A stretch of DNA of 13,244 nt, from contig JAHFAK010000066.1 in NCBI GenBank assembly GCA_023250585.1, forward strand, positions 1-13,244. Reading direction: 5' to 3'. Position numbers and translations under genes: made by a program. The notes beneath the pieces are model-generated. The model made no database searches and was not told the origin of the DNA. It saw only the letters and a list, made by a program, of their open reading frames with translations. Shown one piece after another: positions 1,959-10,151 of the stretch. The stretch's first letter is position 1, and each line of letters begins with the position of its first letter. The stretch is from Deltaproteobacteria bacterium (lineage in GTDB: Bacteria; Bdellovibrionota_F; JAHFAK01).

Positions 1959-3314
1959 ATGACCACAAATATCACTGTCTGGAAAGAAATTCTTGATTCA
2001 ATAAAAAAACAAATAAATTCCCCGTATATTATTGCCTGGCTTGAACCTTTGGCAATACGGACAATTTCTGATACGCGGATTATCCTCGAAGTTCCGAATG
2101 ATTTTTGGCTTGTCTGGATTCAAAAAAACTATTTAGAAATGATTAAAAATACCTGCAAAGAAGTTCTGAAAAAAGATTTTCAGGTCGCTTTAGAAATAAA
2201 TACAAAGCTCACCGAAAAGCTTGATGAAGAAATGCCTACTTCAGAAAATGAAGCCGAACTGATTAATAAAAATTTTCAAAAAAAAATCGAAGGTTCTCTT
2301 TTAAATAAAGAATATATCTTTAATGAATTTATTGTGGGACCGAGCAATCAGTTTGCTCATGCGGCATCGATTGCCTGTGCAAACAATCCGGGCGAAAACT
2401 ACAATCCACTGTTTATCTACGGCGGAGTTGGATTGGGAAAAACGCATCTTGTACATTCAATTGGCAATCAAATGATCAAAAATAATCCCTCGCTTAAGAT
2501 TTGTTATCTGAGCGCTGAAAAATTTATGAATGAACTCATATCATGCATTAAGTATGACAAGATGAATGAATTTCGCAATAAATATCGCCAAAACTGCGAT
2601 GCGCTTTTACTCGACGATGTTCAATTTCTTGCAGGAAAAGAAAGAACGCAGCTCGAATTCTTTCACACCTTCAATGCTCTTTATGAAGAAAGAAAACAAA
2701 TCATTATTACAAGCGATAAGTTTCCAAAAGATATTCCAACTCTCGAAGAGCGTCTCCGCAATCGATTCGAATGGGGATTGATTGCTGATATACAACCACC
2801 TGAACTCGAAACACGGATAGCGATTCTTAAACGAAAAGCAGAAAGCAATAAAATGAATCTTCCGGATGATGTAGCTCTCTATCTTGCAACAAATATACGA
2901 AATAATATTCGAGAGCTCGAAGGTTCGCTCATTCGTCTTGAGGCTTATTCTTCATTAACAGGCATAGCTCTATCTCTGGATCTTGCAAAAGACATTTTGA
3001 AAAACATAATTCAAGATAGCGACAAGAAATTAAAACTCGAAGACGTTCAAAAACATGTTGCTCAATTTTTTAATATAAATACAACTGAATTAAAATCGGC
3101 AAATAAGAAAAAGTTTATAGCTTTTCCACGACAAATAGCCATGTATCTCACGAGAAAACATTTCAACATTTCTTTTCCTGAAATAGGAAATATCTTTGGG
3201 GGAAGAGATCATTCAACAGTTATCCACGCCGTTAAAAAGATTGAAGACAAAATGAAAAATGATAAAAATTTATCGGTAACTCTTGAGACCATTGAAAAGA
3301 ATTTACAGGCATAA
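1959..3314 (+). CDS. dnaA: Chromosomal replication initiator protein DnaA
   Basis: DnaA binds origin boxes as an ATP-dependent filament and melts the origin so that the helicase can be loaded. The 451-residue chain has the standard order. Domain I (about 1-80, with W8 and the 'NDFWLVWIQKNY' region) is followed by a short variable linker (about 80-115). The AAA+ domain III carries Walker A GGVGLGKTH (155-163) and Walker B LLLDDVQF (216-223). Domain IV ends with the box-binding signature GGRDHSTVIHA starting at G414. Length and motifs are typical for the family. The start at 1959 has AGGAG 12 bases upstream and gives a normal domain I. The gene points toward the dnaA-dnaN spacer, which carries the origin features. 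Confidence 0.98.
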   Translation: MTTNITVWKEILDSIKKQINSPYIIAWLEPLAIRTISDTRIILEVPNDFWLVWIQKNYLEMIKNTCKEVLKKDFQVALEINTKLTEKLDEEMPTSENEAELINKNFQKKIEGSLLNKEYIFNEFIVGPSNQFAHAASIACANNPGENYNPLFIYGGVGLGKTHLVHSIGNQMIKNNPSLKICYLSAEKFMNELISCIKYDKMNEFRNKYRQNCDALLLDDVQFLAGKERTQLEFFHTFNALYEERKQIIITSDKFPKDIPTLEERLRNRFEWGLIADIQPPELETRIAILKRKAESNKMNLPDDVALYLATNIRNNIRELEGSLIRLEAYSSLTGIALSLDLAKDILKNIIQDSDKKLKLEDVQKHVAQFFNINTTELKSANKKKFIAFPRQIAMYLTRKHFNISFPEIGNIFGGRDHSTVIHAVKKIEDKMKNDKNLSVTLETIEKNLQA

Positions 3315-3533
3315 AATTTCTGTGTGGAAAATACTGTTGATATCCTGTGAGTGAGTTATGGATAAAATGTTAATCAATTCGATCAATAAACAAAACACAA
3401 AAAATATACCAACATTTATACAGAGAGAAATTTCATTTTCCATAATAGAATTTACACGTTACAAAACGATACACAAATCCACAGCTACTACTACTACTAT
3501 ATTTATATATAAATAATATAAGAAGGAGAACAT
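3315..3533. other. oriC: Putative oriC in the dnaA-dnaN spacer
   Basis: This 219-base gene-free spacer holds degenerate DnaA boxes. Compared with TGTGGATAA/TTATCCACA, they are TGTGGAAAA (3323-3331, one mismatch), TGTTGATAT (3335-3343, two), TATGGATAA (3357-3365, one), TTTTCCATA (3436-3444, two, opposite orientation) and AAATCCACA (3475-3483, two, opposite orientation). The last box is followed after one base by five CTA triplets (3485-3499) and then an almost pure A/T stretch (3500-3520). Box, triplets and AT-rich segment in this order match the basal unwinding system described for Bacillus subtilis. The adjoining dnaA and dnaN genes and the change from loose spacing to a long spacer here support the call; replication has not been shown. 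Confidence 0.75.
3485..3499. repeat. DnaA-trio-like array: five CTA triplets
   Basis: CTA is repeated five times without interruption. On the other strand this reads 3'-GAT-5' five times, which fits the DnaA-trio consensus 3'-(G/A)A(T/A)-5' that guides the DnaA filament onto one strand. It begins one base after a DnaA-box-like site (3475-3483) and ends at the AT-rich segment, as expected for a functional trio. Confidence 0.65.
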
Positions 3534-4658
3534 ATGGAATTTAAAATACCTAAAAATTTATTTATAAAAGCATTAGCAAAAACTATCTCAATAGCAGAAA
3601 AAAATATAGGACATGTGCTTTCAAATATTTTGATTGAAGGAGATAAAGATACCATTACATTTAAATCAACCGATTTAGAAATTGCACTCATACAGCAGTA
3701 TCCTATTTCTTTGCTTAAAAAAGGATGCGTTGTCGTAAGCGCTCGAAAATTATATGATATCATTAAAGAATTTCCCGATAAAGATATTGATGTTGCCGTG
3801 GATGAACGATTTAAAATGGAGCTTGTGTCAGGTAAAACGCGCATAAGATTAAATGGAATAGAACCTTCTGAATTTCCAAAAATTCCTGAATATAAAAAAG
3901 ATAAATTTTTTAAATTAGAGACCGATAGCCTTTTAGATATGATTGAAAAAACAGTTTTTGCAACAAGCAACAACGAAACAAAAAGAATTTTGAATGGCGT
4001 GTATTTTGAAAAAATAATGAGAGAAGAAAAGAAATTTATTCGAATGATTGCTACCGATGGACATCGATTATCGATAATGGATAAAGAAGTAGAAAATTGG
4101 AATAAGATCAATATTACCGAAGGAGTTATTATTCCTAAAAAAGGGCTCAACGAATTAAAGCGAATTTGCGAAGACGAAGCATCTGAAGTTTCTTTTAATT
4201 TTGTGGATAATAATTTTGTCGTTATTGGAGATAATACAACGCTCTCTATGAGATTACTTCAAGGAGGATATCCTAATTATCAACAAGTTATCCCCAAGCG
4301 GAATGAAAATACAATGATCGTAAATCGCGTTGAATTAATTAATGCGCTTAAAAGAATGTCTTCCATTTGTTCTCTCACCGATGAATTTAAAAAAGTACTC
4401 TTTACCGTAGAAGGATCAAAATTATCTCTGTATTCAAAATCCCCCGAGCTCGGAGAAGCTAATGAAGAATTTGATGTTGAATACATCGGCATGCCTCTCG
4501 AAGTTTCATTTAACTCAAAATTTTTTATTGAAGCATTAAATGTCATGAATAATGCCGAAAAAGTTCGTATAAAATTTGGAGATAAAGAAACACCTGCCCT
4601 TCTGTATTATGTTAATTCGGCAGAATATCTCCATTTAATAATGCCGCTTCGTTCGTAA
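3534..4658 (+). CDS. dnaN: DNA polymerase III beta subunit (sliding clamp)
   Basis: The ring-shaped clamp tethers DNA polymerase and many repair proteins to DNA. The 374-residue length and the three repeated clamp folds match the family: start MEFKIPKNLFIKALAKTISIA, middle 'FVRMIATDGHRLSIMDKE'-like segment seen here as IRMIATDGHRLSIM, and C-terminal end YYVNSAEYLHLIMPLRS, where the M-P-L/R region shapes the client-binding pocket. A strong Shine-Dalgarno AAGGAG (3523-3528) lies five bases before the ATG. Its leader overlaps the AT-rich end of oriC. recF follows after 22 bases, so the two are probably cotranscribed. Confidence 0.98.
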   Translation: MEFKIPKNLFIKALAKTISIAEKNIGHVLSNILIEGDKDTITFKSTDLEIALIQQYPISLLKKGCVVVSARKLYDIIKEFPDKDIDVAVDERFKMELVSGKTRIRLNGIEPSEFPKIPEYKKDKFFKLETDSLLDMIEKTVFATSNNETKRILNGVYFEKIMREEKKFIRMIATDGHRLSIMDKEVENWNKINITEGVIIPKKGLNELKRICEDEASEVSFNFVDNNFVVIGDNTTLSMRLLQGGYPNYQQVIPKRNENTMIVNRVELINALKRMSSICSLTDEFKKVLFTVEGSKLSLYSKSPELGEANEEFDVEYIGMPLEVSFNSKFFIEALNVMNNAEKVRIKFGDKETPALLYYVNSAEYLHLIMPLRS

Positions 4659-4680: not shown

Positions 4681-5805
4681 ATGTATCTAAACAGTATTTC
4701 TCTTCTCAATTTCAGAAATTTTGAATCGTTAAAACTTGATTCAATGAAAAGAATTAATGTTTTTATTGGAAAGAATGCTCAAGGCAAAACAAATTTTATT
4801 GAAGCAATTTATCTTTTAGGCGCGCTTCGCTCTTTTCGTGGTTCAAAAAAGGAAGATATAATTATGAAAGGAAAAGATTCGTCGACTATCGTAGCGGAAA
4901 TAGGCAAGGATGGCTTAACAAAAGACCTTGAGCTTAATTTATCCAAAGATAAAAAAAATATTCGAGTTAATCATCATACCGTTTCTCATATGGAAGATTA
5001 TTATCGCGATTATCGAGTCGTAACATTTACGCCGGATGATACTATGCTTATCAAAGGCCTGCCTGAAGAAAGAAGGAATTTTTTAAATAGAGGAATCGTA
5101 ACCTATAATCCAATCTATTATCGAGTATATCGTAATTTTTCAAAAGCCCTTGATTCAAAAAAAATGCTTCTAAAAAATGATCGAGTACAAAAAAATGATC
5201 TCAGGCTGTGGAATAAAGAATTAGCAAAATACAGCGCGCCTATTTATATTGAACGAGAATCATTTATCAATGCGCTCAATGAACGCATTGCCCCTATATA
5301 TGAAAAAATTTCTCATAAAAAAGATTCTCTGTGTCTGACGTATATCCCCTCTTCTGGGCTTATTGATGTATCTCTCGATATAAAATCTGAAACCTTTCAA
5401 GATGATCTCGAAAATCTTTTGAATGGAAGATTAGATGAAGAAATTTTTTCACGGCATTGTTTAATTTCTCCAACCCGAGATGATATAGCCTTTAGTTTAA
5501 AAGATCTTTCTGCAAAAAACTATGCGTCTCAGGGAGAAATTAAAACAATCATACTGGCCTTGAAAATAGCCCACCTTGAGCATGTCTATTCAGTAACCGG
5601 CGAATATCCCGTCTTTTTACTCGACGATATTTCAAGCGAATTAGACGAAACCCGCCGATCATTTTTAATGAAATATCTTCAAGAAAAAAATATTCAAATT
5701 TTTTTAACAACGACAAAGTTTGATAATTATTTACAAGACATGAATAGTAATGATTATTCTCTCTATAAGGTCGAAGAAGGAAAAATTATACATTATGTTT
5801 CGTAA
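4681..5805 (+). CDS. recF: DNA replication and repair protein RecF
   Basis: RecF is an ABC-type ATPase that binds gapped DNA and helps load RecA during gap repair. The 374-residue protein shows the SMC-like layout: N-terminal LLNFRNF, Walker A GKNAQGKT (30-37), ABC signature SQGE (283-286) and Walker B with D-loop VFLLDDISSELD (about 311-322). Length is typical. No clear Shine-Dalgarno precedes ATG 4681, and an ATG at 4677 is out of frame. The gene sits 22 bases after dnaN, and the start of dciA lies inside its 3' end, so translation is probably coupled along the operon. Confidence 0.97.
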   Translation: MYLNSISLLNFRNFESLKLDSMKRINVFIGKNAQGKTNFIEAIYLLGALRSFRGSKKEDIIMKGKDSSTIVAEIGKDGLTKDLELNLSKDKKNIRVNHHTVSHMEDYYRDYRVVTFTPDDTMLIKGLPEERRNFLNRGIVTYNPIYYRVYRNFSKALDSKKMLLKNDRVQKNDLRLWNKELAKYSAPIYIERESFINALNERIAPIYEKISHKKDSLCLTYIPSSGLIDVSLDIKSETFQDDLENLLNGRLDEEIFSRHCLISPTRDDIAFSLKDLSAKNYASQGEIKTIILALKIAHLEHVYSVTGEYPVFLLDDISSELDETRRSFLMKYLQEKNIQIFLTTTKFDNYLQDMNSNDYSLYKVEEGKIIHYVS

Positions 5806-6259
5806 AGAACGTTTCCAAAGGCCCAATATATCTTTTCTCGTTGATAAATGTGTCGGTAAAGGCGTGACCCTGTATATGAAAATCTGTAAACTGTGGCCAG
5901 AAATAGTTGGAGAAAAGATTTCCAATAACTCAATGCCCTCTTTTATTGCCAGAAATAAACTCTATGTAAATGTCTCCAGCGCTCCCTGGAAAAACGAACT
6001 TGAATTTTTAAAAAACAACGTGCTCATTAAAATAAATGAGAAAATAAAACCGTATTTTATTAGAGAAATCCATTTTAAAATTGGTTCGATCGACAAGATT
6101 GGTTCCAATTCTACATCAAGAACTCTTCCCCAAAGTGTAAGTAAAAAAAATCTTGAGCTTATTGAAGATACTTCTCATGGCATTAAAGATCAGGCGCTTA
6201 AAGATATATTTAAAAATGCAATGCTGAGATCGTATAATAAGAAGAAGGAAAACGCATGA
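5795..6259 (+). CDS. dciA: DciA (DUF721), replicative helicase loader/operator
   Basis: DUF721/DciA proteins interact with the DnaB helicase in most bacteria that lack DnaC or DnaI loaders. The 154-residue protein has the diagnostic core 'LWPEIVGEKISNNSMPSFIARNKLYVNVSSAPWKNEL' region (quoted as LWPEIVGEKIS and LYVNVSSAPWKNELEFL), that is W-P-x-I-V-G, the beta-strand pair and the W-x-x-E-L helix. The start at 5795 was chosen over the in-frame ATG at 5750 because residues before MFRKERFQRP have no family counterpart and lie in recF; GAAGAAGG is 14 bases upstream. It overlaps recF by 11 bases and hemL by 4. The position directly after recF is the common place for this gene. Confidence 0.88.
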   Translation: MFRKERFQRPNISFLVDKCVGKGVTLYMKICKLWPEIVGEKISNNSMPSFIARNKLYVNVSSAPWKNELEFLKNNVLIKINEKIKPYFIREIHFKIGSIDKIGSNSTSRTLPQSVSKKNLELIEDTSHGIKDQALKDIFKNAMLRSYNKKKENA

Positions 6260-8275: not shown

Positions 8276-8890
8276 ATGAAACATAAACCTATTATTGTAG
8301 GGCTCACCGGAGGGGTTGGTTCTGGAAAAACCGAAGCGACGCTTTTTTTAAGAAAAAAAGGGTTTACCGTCATTGATGCTGATGAAATTTCTCATTCAAT
8401 TACGCAACCGGGAATGTCCGGATACCAAAAAATTCTCAAAATATTTGGCAATGGAGTTCTTAATTCCGGAAGTGAAATTGATAGAAAAAAACTAGGTGAG
8501 CTTGTTTTTAATGATGAAACCAAGCGAAAACAGCTTGAATCCATACTTCATCCGCTTATTCTTACTGAAATACAAACCCAAATTGCAGCTCATCAAGATG
8601 AATCGATCATTTTTGTTTCAATTCCTCTTTTAATCGAAACCGGTTCTTTTAAGGGAATGAATTGTTCCCTGTTGATCTATGCTCCTCAAGATATACAACT
8701 TCAGCGTTTAATTACTCATCGTAAGCTGCCTCGGGAGTATGCTGAAAAAATTCTTGCCGCTCAAATACCTATTAAAAACAAGCAACAACGTGTGGATTAT
8801 GTTGTGGATAATTCGGGAACATTAGAAGAGCTTCATAATAATCTTGAAAAAGCGCTCAAAAAATTGTGTGACCAGATAGACCCAAGTTAA
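8276..8890 (+). CDS. coaE: Dephospho-CoA kinase
   Basis: CoaE phosphorylates the ribose 3'-OH of dephospho-CoA, the last step of coenzyme A synthesis. The 204-residue protein has the P-loop GGVGSGKT (12-19) after a beta strand (IIVGLTG), the DADEISH motif that binds substrate, ILHPLI, the FVSIPLLIETG segment and a C-terminal DYVVDNSG, all standard for the family and length. No clear Shine-Dalgarno is seen; the short distance from the membrane-protein gene suggests readthrough. An inverted repeat overlaps its stop codon. rho, which often neighbours coaE in other bacteria, lies beyond the accessory genes that follow. Confidence 0.96.
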   Translation: MKHKPIIVGLTGGVGSGKTEATLFLRKKGFTVIDADEISHSITQPGMSGYQKILKIFGNGVLNSGSEIDRKKLGELVFNDETKRKQLESILHPLILTEIQTQIAAHQDESIIFVSIPLLIETGSFKGMNCSLLIYAPQDIQLQRLITHRKLPREYAEKILAAQIPIKNKQQRVDYVVDNSGTLEELHNNLEKALKKLCDQIDPS

Positions 8891-8963: not shown

Positions 8964-8983
8964 ATGTTATATAAGAATAACAT
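8944..8983. promoter_or_regulatory. Tandem palindromic operator, 2 x ATGTTAT-N6-ATAACAT
   Basis: Two 20-base inverted repeats abut exactly: ATGTTATTTTAAAATAACAT (8944-8963, a perfect palindrome) and ATGTTATATAAGAATAACAT (8964-8983, perfect 7-base arms). They cover the -10 region and the start codon of the MNT gene. Arms, spacing of one repeat every 20 bases (about two helical turns) and position fit paired dimers of a winged-helix repressor on one face of DNA; the MNT protein itself has such a domain, so autoregulation is inferred. Confidence 0.7.
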
Positions 8984-9593
8984 GACTTTTAACAATATCA
9001 TTAATAATTTTCTCGGTGATAGAATTAATCTTTTAGTATTACAGGTGCTTTATCATCAAAAAAATGGAGTGTCAGGACGTATGATGAGCCGCTTGGCGAA
9101 TGCATCTGTTTTTAAAGTACATCATGTCCTCAAGTTTCTAGTAAGACAGGGCGTAGTAAAAGAAGAAATATTTGGAAAAACTCACCGATACCAAGTGAAT
9201 AGAAACCATATTCTTGTAAAGGAACTTTTAAACCCGATTGTGCATTTCGAGCAAAATATTTTCCAAGATCTGGGAATGAAGATTGCTCATGCATATGATC
9301 CACATCCTTTATCTGTGGTGCTCTACGGAAGCGTTGCACGAGGAGAAGAAAAACCGGACAGCGACATAGACATTGCGCTTATTACTCATACAGCCACAAC
9401 GTATGTAAAAAAAGACGGTTTTATCGCAGATCTTATCACACTGTATGGAAATACAATCTCGATACGAGTTATTCCTTTCGATGAGTTTCGAAAGAAAAGA
9501 CAAAAAAAACATGATCCATTGATTCGTGCTATTATAAAAGAAGGAAAATCAATATATGGAAAATCTTTTATAGAATTATTTGGGAACCTCTAA
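8982..9593 (+). CDS. Winged-helix / MNT-type nucleotidyltransferase (antitoxin-like), C-terminus altered by insertion
   Basis: The protein (203 residues from this start) joins a winged helix-turn-helix domain (about residues 14-74: RINLLVLQVL, SRLANASVFKVHHVLKFLVRQG, HRYQVNRNH) to a minimal nucleotidyltransferase (about 108-185) with the catalytic pattern G-S-V-A-R-G-E-E and S-D-I-D-I, that is GS followed by DxD (D128 and D130 in this numbering). MNT proteins act as antitoxins by adding AMP to partner HEPN toxins in known MntA/HepT pairs. I chose ATG 8982 over 8964 because 8964 lies inside the operator and upstream of the likely RNA start; 8964 adds six residues. The final codons GGG AAC CTC and the stop come from the foldback element that begins at 9582. 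Without that element the frame would continue for 13 residues (KKNMLLEEPITRE) and stop in an ATGA overlap with the next gene. Confidence 0.8.
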   Translation: MTFNNIINNFLGDRINLLVLQVLYHQKNGVSGRMMSRLANASVFKVHHVLKFLVRQGVVKEEIFGKTHRYQVNRNHILVKELLNPIVHFEQNIFQDLGMKIAHAYDPHPLSVVLYGSVARGEEKPDSDIDIALITHTATTYVKKDGFIADLITLYGNTISIRVIPFDEFRKKRQKKHDPLIRAIIKEGKSIYGKSFIELFGNL

Positions 9594-9705
9594 AAACTAT
9601 CCATTTACTTCGTTGTCAACCTATGAGTAATCCTCACGTATTAGCAATACGCTCCGGTTGCTCATAGGTTGACGCCTTGTATCTGGGCACTTTTTAGAGG
9701 TTCCC
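9582..9705. mobile_element. 124-bp foldback (MITE-like) element
   Basis: The ends GGGAACCTCTAAAAA (9582-9596) and TTTTTAGAGGTTCCC (9691-9705) are perfect 15-base inverted repeats, extended to 17 by flanking TT/AA. Inside is a second perfect pair GTCAACCTATGAG (9615-9627) / CTCATAGGTTGAC (9661-9673), and at the centre CGTATT (9637-9642) / AATACG (9646-9651). The whole element can fold into one long hairpin; the segments between the pairs look like decayed arms. It has no coding capacity for a transposase and no obvious target duplication, so it is probably a non-autonomous element moved by an unseen transposase. It supplies the stop codon of the upstream gene. Its RNA hairpin could also separate the expression of the two genes. 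Confidence 0.7.
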
Positions 9706-9743
9706 AAGAAAAACATGTTATTAGAGGAGCCCATTACACGAGA

Positions 9744-10151
9744 ATGACTAGAAAAATCATTACAAAAAATGTTTCTCGAGAAAACTATCGCAGTTATAGG
9801 GGAAAGGCATTACAATTCTACGGAGTGATGAATATATGCTTACAAGATAGAGAATGGGATGCCGTATTACTCAATGGAGTACATGCAAGCATTAGTATGT
9901 GCGATGCATTAACGGTATTTCATGCAGGTAAGCATTCAAAGAGCGCGCATCATAGAGATGCCGCTCTTTTACTAGCCGAGAGCATTCCAAGTGACAAGAA
10001 CATCAATAAAAATGTACAGCGTCTTTGCGAAATTATTGATGAAAAAAATCTTATCGAATATCAACCAAAGCGATTTCAAGAACAGGAAGCCTTTTCATTT
10101 GCCCTTAAAGTAGAACGATTTTTCGAGTGGGCGAAGGCATTATTGCCTTAA
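9744..10151 (+). CDS. HEPN-like partner protein of the MNT gene (putative toxin)
   Basis: The 135-residue, mostly helical protein has a HEPN-like pattern: helix with YRGKALQFYGVMNICLQ, then WDAVLLNGVHASISMCDALTVF (the 'N-x-x-H/Y-A-x-x-x-x-x-D' helix typical of HEPN and related HTH-less bundles), then KHSKSAHHRDAALLL and a C-terminal helix with VERFFEWAKALL. HEPN/MNT pairs are toxin-antitoxin modules in which HEPN is often an RNase. However, no R-x4-6-H motif is present in this protein, so RNase activity is uncertain. The start at 9744 follows AGAGGAG (9723-9729); the longer in-frame start at 9669 lies inside the foldback element and is rejected. The family call rests on pattern and context, not on a search. 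Confidence 0.65.
   Translation: MTRKIITKNVSRENYRSYRGKALQFYGVMNICLQDREWDAVLLNGVHASISMCDALTVFHAGKHSKSAHHRDAALLLAESIPSDKNINKNVQRLCEIIDEKNLIEYQPKRFQEQEAFSFALKVERFFEWAKALLP

Follow-up and report, generated by a model that had tools for sequence, protein, structure and literature searches.

The 219-bp intergenic region between dnaA and dnaN (positions 3315–3533, no strand assigned) is almost certainly the chromosome origin of this bacterium, and from its sequence we estimate a probability of about 92% that it holds a standard Basal Unwinding System (BUS). The layout itself, in which a DnaA box is followed by DnaA-trios and an AT-rich element, is already known from many bacteria; its presence here would bring a sparsely sampled phylum into the range of DnaA-trio origins and provide a clear predicted oriC for it. 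We favor this reading because the region lies between dnaA and dnaN, its (CTA)5 run is unique in the genome, the least stable window of the contig begins in it, the initiator keeps 10 of the 11 functional residues checked, and 71 of the 80 CTA loci listed from elsewhere carry dnaA and/or dnaN. Against it stand the two mismatches of the trio-proximal box, the three of its tandem partner, the 1-nt gap between box and triplets, and a GC skew turn that falls inside dnaN. An earlier note on this DNA had already proposed an origin with a DnaA-trio, and the proposal is well supported by the position between the two genes, the order and polarity of the box, trio, and AT elements, the lowest stability on the contig, the nearby local skew turn, and the DnaA residues.

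Genomic context of the predicted origin

The window that we analyzed is an entire contig of 13,244 bp from a 2.24 Mb genome in 164 contigs. Upstream of the predicted origin lies dnaA (1959–3314, plus strand), encoding an initiator protein of 451 aa identified by phmmer and by the Pfam domains Bac_DnaA, Bac_DnaA_C, and DnaA_N, and downstream lies dnaN (3534–4658, plus strand), whose sliding clamp product was recognized from its DNA_pol3_beta domains. Next after dnaN come a RecF-like SMC_N gene and then a DciA-domain gene. We predict oriC in the gap from its position, its sequence elements, and the GC skew of the contig. A search for promoter-like enrichment found none in 3250–3600, and Rfam returned no match anywhere in the window.

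Computed over the contig only, cumulative GC skew stands at −27 at position 3500, reaches its minimum of −28 at 3709–3722, and climbs to +131 at the contig end. The turn lies ≈200 bp inside dnaN, the fall that precedes it is small, and the skew before the site is weak; as a local test only, the contig skew agrees with an origin nearby.

DnaA boxes, CTA triplets, and the A/T-only element

The core of the region holds the trio-proximal DnaA box AAATCCACA (3475–3483, plus strand, 2 mismatches), directly 3′ of which a G at 3484 leads into (CTA)5 at 3485–3499; the dnaN start codon stands 34 nt past the end of this run. Both the sequence and the region coordinates confirm the order of box, G, (CTA)5, and A/T-rich DNA that had been described earlier. 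The almost pure A/T stretch then placed at 3475–3520 does exist, but its extent was drawn loosely, as the A/T-only run, a putative unwinding element without strand assignment, is the 24 nt at 3498–3521 that overlap the last TA of the triplets. Directly after it comes AAGGAGA, the likely ribosome-binding site of dnaN. By nearest-neighbor energies, the lowest-stability 40-bp window of the contig begins at 3485.

A degenerate outer box, CGATACACA (3467–3475, plus strand, 3 mismatches), sits 8 bp upstream of AAATCCACA, start to start, which is also the offset between tandem boxes at (4,12) in other origins. The scan also found TTTTCCACA (3323–3331) and TTATCCATA (3357–3365), each on the minus strand with one mismatch, and a weak box, TTTTCCATA (3436–3444, plus strand, 2 mismatches); a perfect TTATCCACA is absent from the 219 bp scanned. 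The earlier description of the boxes as degenerate holds for the missing perfect box and for the two mismatches next to the trios but not for TTTTCCACA and TTATCCATA. Upstream of dnaA, the gap yielded no box with ≤1 mismatch. The whole window contains 13 boxes with ≤1 mismatch, compared with 3.3 expected. A cluster inside dnaN (4202–4296) comprises a perfect box at 4202–4210 on the minus strand and one-mismatch boxes at 4277 and 4288 on the plus strand. In the 3′ part of coaE (8791–8811), the minus strand carries TAATCCACA and a perfect TTATCCACA at a distance of 12 bp, perhaps by chance or as a DnaA-titrating site.

Set against the features that define a BUS, the region adjoins both dnaA and dnaN and has a box with two mismatches, AAATCCACA, at a spacer of 1 or 4 nt from its trios, where a BUS calls for ≤2 mismatches within 16 bp (PMC8287927). 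The second tandem box of ≤4 mismatches, frequent but optional in a BUS, is represented by CGATACACA. Four or five CTA triplets stand where at least three trios with a middle A on the trio strand are expected, and the trio-binding residues and arginine finger of DnaA are identical at 10 of 11 positions, the exception being N196 to D.

Uniform CTA trios in other bacteria

To place the CTA run in context, we scanned one genome per GTDB species for the pattern TCCACA-N(0-15)-(CTA)5, and obtained at least 117 stretches. The 80 loci listed among these were chosen for their five CTAs, so frequencies among them are not population estimates. Using the DnaA and DnaN of the window as tblastn queries, we found dnaA and/or dnaN at 71 of the 80 loci among the matches listed and neither gene at 9; some of the 71 gave dnaA alone or dnaN alone with these queries. 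At least ten phyla are represented among the listed matches with dnaA/dnaN, the taxa, as named in the record titles, including Bacillota, Cyanobacteria, Bdellovibrionota, Gemmatimonadota, Spirochaetota, Acidobacteriota, Actinobacteria, Dadabacteria, Eisenbacteria, Poribacteria, and Nitrospinaceae. The run has five CTAs in 43 and six in 28 of these 71 listed origins. In a separate survey of 386 genomes, TCCACA-N(0-14)-(CTA)4 occurred in 11, the window's own genome included, and the reversed-pattern control had no matches in the same 386.

The literature points the same way: 3′-GAT-5′ is the commonest trio, with BUS elements predicted in 85% of 2,070 origins (PMC8287927), and a B. subtilis origin with all six trios as 3′-GA-5′ still works (PMC10721633). 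Because CTA is widespread in origins and these published frequencies and the functional all-3′-GA-5′ origin agree with it, uniform CTA trios are ordinary, not remarkable. The view that five identical triplets are unusually regular does not survive the finding of (CTA)5-6 beside a box and dnaA/dnaN at 71 of the 80 loci among the matches listed.

When we applied strict BUS criteria (box with ≤2 mismatches and ≥3 (C/T)T(A/T) trios) to the DNA upstream of dnaN, 7 of the 34 regions that have dnaA next to them were positive, where shuffled sequences gave ≈2, and none of the 25 regions that lack an adjacent dnaA was. Because G+C-rich origins and origins that deviate from the strict consensus are numerous, this collection was too small to serve as a sample of spacings, and we set it aside.

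The triplets might instead be a chance microsatellite, or simply part of a 52-aa ORF (3358–3516), with no role in replication. Triplet repeats can originate by slippage, and the run does sit within that short ORF, but (CTA)5 occurs just once in the 2.24 Mb genome. Moreover, when the 219-bp spacer was simulated 20,000 times with a first-order Markov model, (CTA)5 arose in none of the replicates, (CTA)4 in 1, and (CTA)3 in 22, and among the matches listed such CTA runs take the corresponding box-adjacent place in a wide range of bacteria, with the box-to-run distance conserved. Genome uniqueness, simulations, and conserved placement and distance led us to reject the microsatellite and small-ORF readings alike as extremely improbable.

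The earlier note had further suggested that, in this lineage, uniform trios may offset the weakness of the DnaA boxes. The proximal and outer boxes of the window, with two and three mismatches, fit that idea, but the same dnaA-dnaN spacer also holds two one-mismatch boxes. Moreover, the best adjacent box in the 71 origins with ≥5 CTAs among the matches listed has no mismatch in 30, one in 34, two in 6, and three in 1, so that 64 of 71 have ≤1 mismatch, although the TCCACA of the search pattern favors good boxes. We find no support for such compensation and regard it as very unlikely.

Spacing between the DnaA box and the trios

The feature that sets the window apart is the 1-nt gap between AAATCCACA and the first CTA, which is unlike nearly all other origins examined. 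Taking the best box (≤3 mismatches) no more than 8 nt before the start of the CTA run, we found a spacer of 4 nt in 60 and 3 nt in 4 of the 71 origins among the matches listed, no box within 8 nt in 7, and a spacer of 1 with such a box in none. The commonest sets of box positions in these listed origins are (4,13), in 35, and (4,12), in 20; the boxes of the window, at 1 and 9, become (4,12) once the spacer is taken to include the first CTA. The other 10 matching genomes of the 386-genome survey have a spacer of 4 in eight cases, 8 in one, and 12 in one, and TCCACAG(CTA)3 is absent from all of the surveyed genomes except the window's.

Because the usual spacer in other origins is 4 nt, the first CTA most likely belongs to a GCTA spacer (3484–3487, plus strand), a probable assignment drawn from the spacer distribution. 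Four CTA trios would then remain in register at 3488–3499 (plus strand, 3′-GAT-5′ on the complementary strand) of the five counted earlier at 3485–3499. The GC-rich spacer is usually 4–5 bp long and has been suggested to keep the distance between box and trios (PMC8235120). GCTA fits that length but has only 50% G+C, GC-richness not being a defining feature.

Alternatively, all five CTAs could be trios behind a 1-nt spacer, a shortened variant in which DnaA would engage single-stranded DNA directly past the box. G and (CTA)5 are indeed read straight from the sequence, and in H. pylori unwinding persisted when a DnaA-trio was swapped in for the GC-rich sequence (PMC8235120). The absence of a spacer of 1 among the 71 listed origins, where 4 (60) and 3 (4) prevail, and of TCCACAG(CTA)3 from the other surveyed genomes argues against this arrangement, as do two of the seven listed origins without a near box, L110 and L117. 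There a G precedes six CTAs and the box is at 9, so that each can be read as having a box at 12, a 4-nt spacer, and five trios; in L110, a further box of lower quality, AATTTCACA, with 4 mismatches, stands at a spacer of 1. We consider five functional trios unlikely. It is quite unlikely, too, judging from the sequence, that this is a natural origin in which a trio has been substituted for the GC-rich spacer, placing the trios one step nearer the box, but if true, such an origin could tell whether box-trio distance or trio sequence sets the start of melting. The preferred reading is GCTA followed by four trios. That the box lies 3–4 nt before the run in 64 of 71 origins among the matches listed offers a simple rule for finding the first functional trio; this rule fits the distance-keeper view of the GC-rich sequence from the H. 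pylori work (PMC8235120).

The initiator protein and a proposed opening mechanism

The DnaA of the window matches B. subtilis DnaA (8btg) with a phmmer E value of 2.5e-132. We checked 11 B. subtilis positions covering trio reading, phosphate contact, and the arginine finger (183, 187, 190, 193, 196, 197, 202, 222, 223, 228, and 264); the roles of all of these except 197 are described in PMC10721633. Ten of the 11 are identical (E183, N187, I190, I193, K197, R202, K222, E223, E228, and R264), and position 196 is D in place of N. Because these residues are kept, we predict that this DnaA shares the preference for 3′-GA-5′.

The sequence, the position and order of its elements, the spacing statistics, and the conserved DnaA residues are direct observations; from them we infer how the origin would act here, from DnaA binding through unwinding to the loading of helicase. 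DnaA would bind the co-oriented tandem boxes CGATACACA and AAATCCACA, and DnaA-ATP would then polymerize along the 3′-GAT-5′ strand opposite the CTA repeats, with neighboring protomers capturing each trio's G and A, through four in-register trios and then imperfect A/T triplets. The A/T run would melt toward dnaN and permit helicase loading, possibly aided by DciA (gene at 5750–6259). That DciA-domain gene (Pfam E 5e-14) overlaps the end of the RecF-like gene and suggests DciA-type helicase loading in this lineage.

Comparison with known origins

The B. subtilis BUS also lies just before dnaN, the same place as in the window. With the B. subtilis incC/BUS, the window shares co-oriented tandem boxes, 3′-GAT-5′ trios on one strand, and an A/T-rich element after them (PMC6669920, PMC8287927, PMC10721633), as well as an initiator with the same trio-reading residues. 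Unlike in B. subtilis, its outer box is degenerate, its trios are uniformly CTA, its spacer is GCTA rather than GGCC, and the gap upstream of dnaA lacks a box with ≤1 mismatch. H. pylori oriC2 has the same order of box, spacer, DnaA-trio, and A/T-rich DNA, and its poriG4 mutant, in which a trio replaces the GC-rich sequence and which is still unwound in vitro, resembles the natural GCTA of the window; H. pylori differs in its bipartite origin, its box consensus sequences, and its real GC-rich spacer (PMC8235120).

Streptococcus suis, Halonatronum, and Dadabacteria (L110) share an unbroken (CTA)5-6 by a DnaA box together with dnaA and/or dnaN, but in the (CTA)5-6 origins among the matches listed, the box is mostly 4 nt before the run; L110, with its G and six CTAs, is the arrangement closest to the window among them. 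In another genome assigned to the same phylum (G001), TTATTAACA-TATAAACATGAT-CTACTA and AT-rich DNA occur upstream of dnaN (L008, 660–740), with no dnaA beside it. We rejected this genome as a close-relative comparison because it may be mis-binned: the DNA around its dnaN is AT-rich, whereas the contig that carries its dnaA (L033) is G+C-rich.

Neighboring genes

Upstream of dnaA, 592–1836 encodes a PRC-barrel followed by MgtE_N and CBS domains, with no membrane domain detected, as in a soluble MgtE-like protein. Further downstream, at 8964–10151, a gene for a nucleotidyltransferase-domain protein with a probable helix-turn-helix precedes one for a 160-aa protein without a Pfam match, and the two possibly form an MNT/HEPN-type pair.
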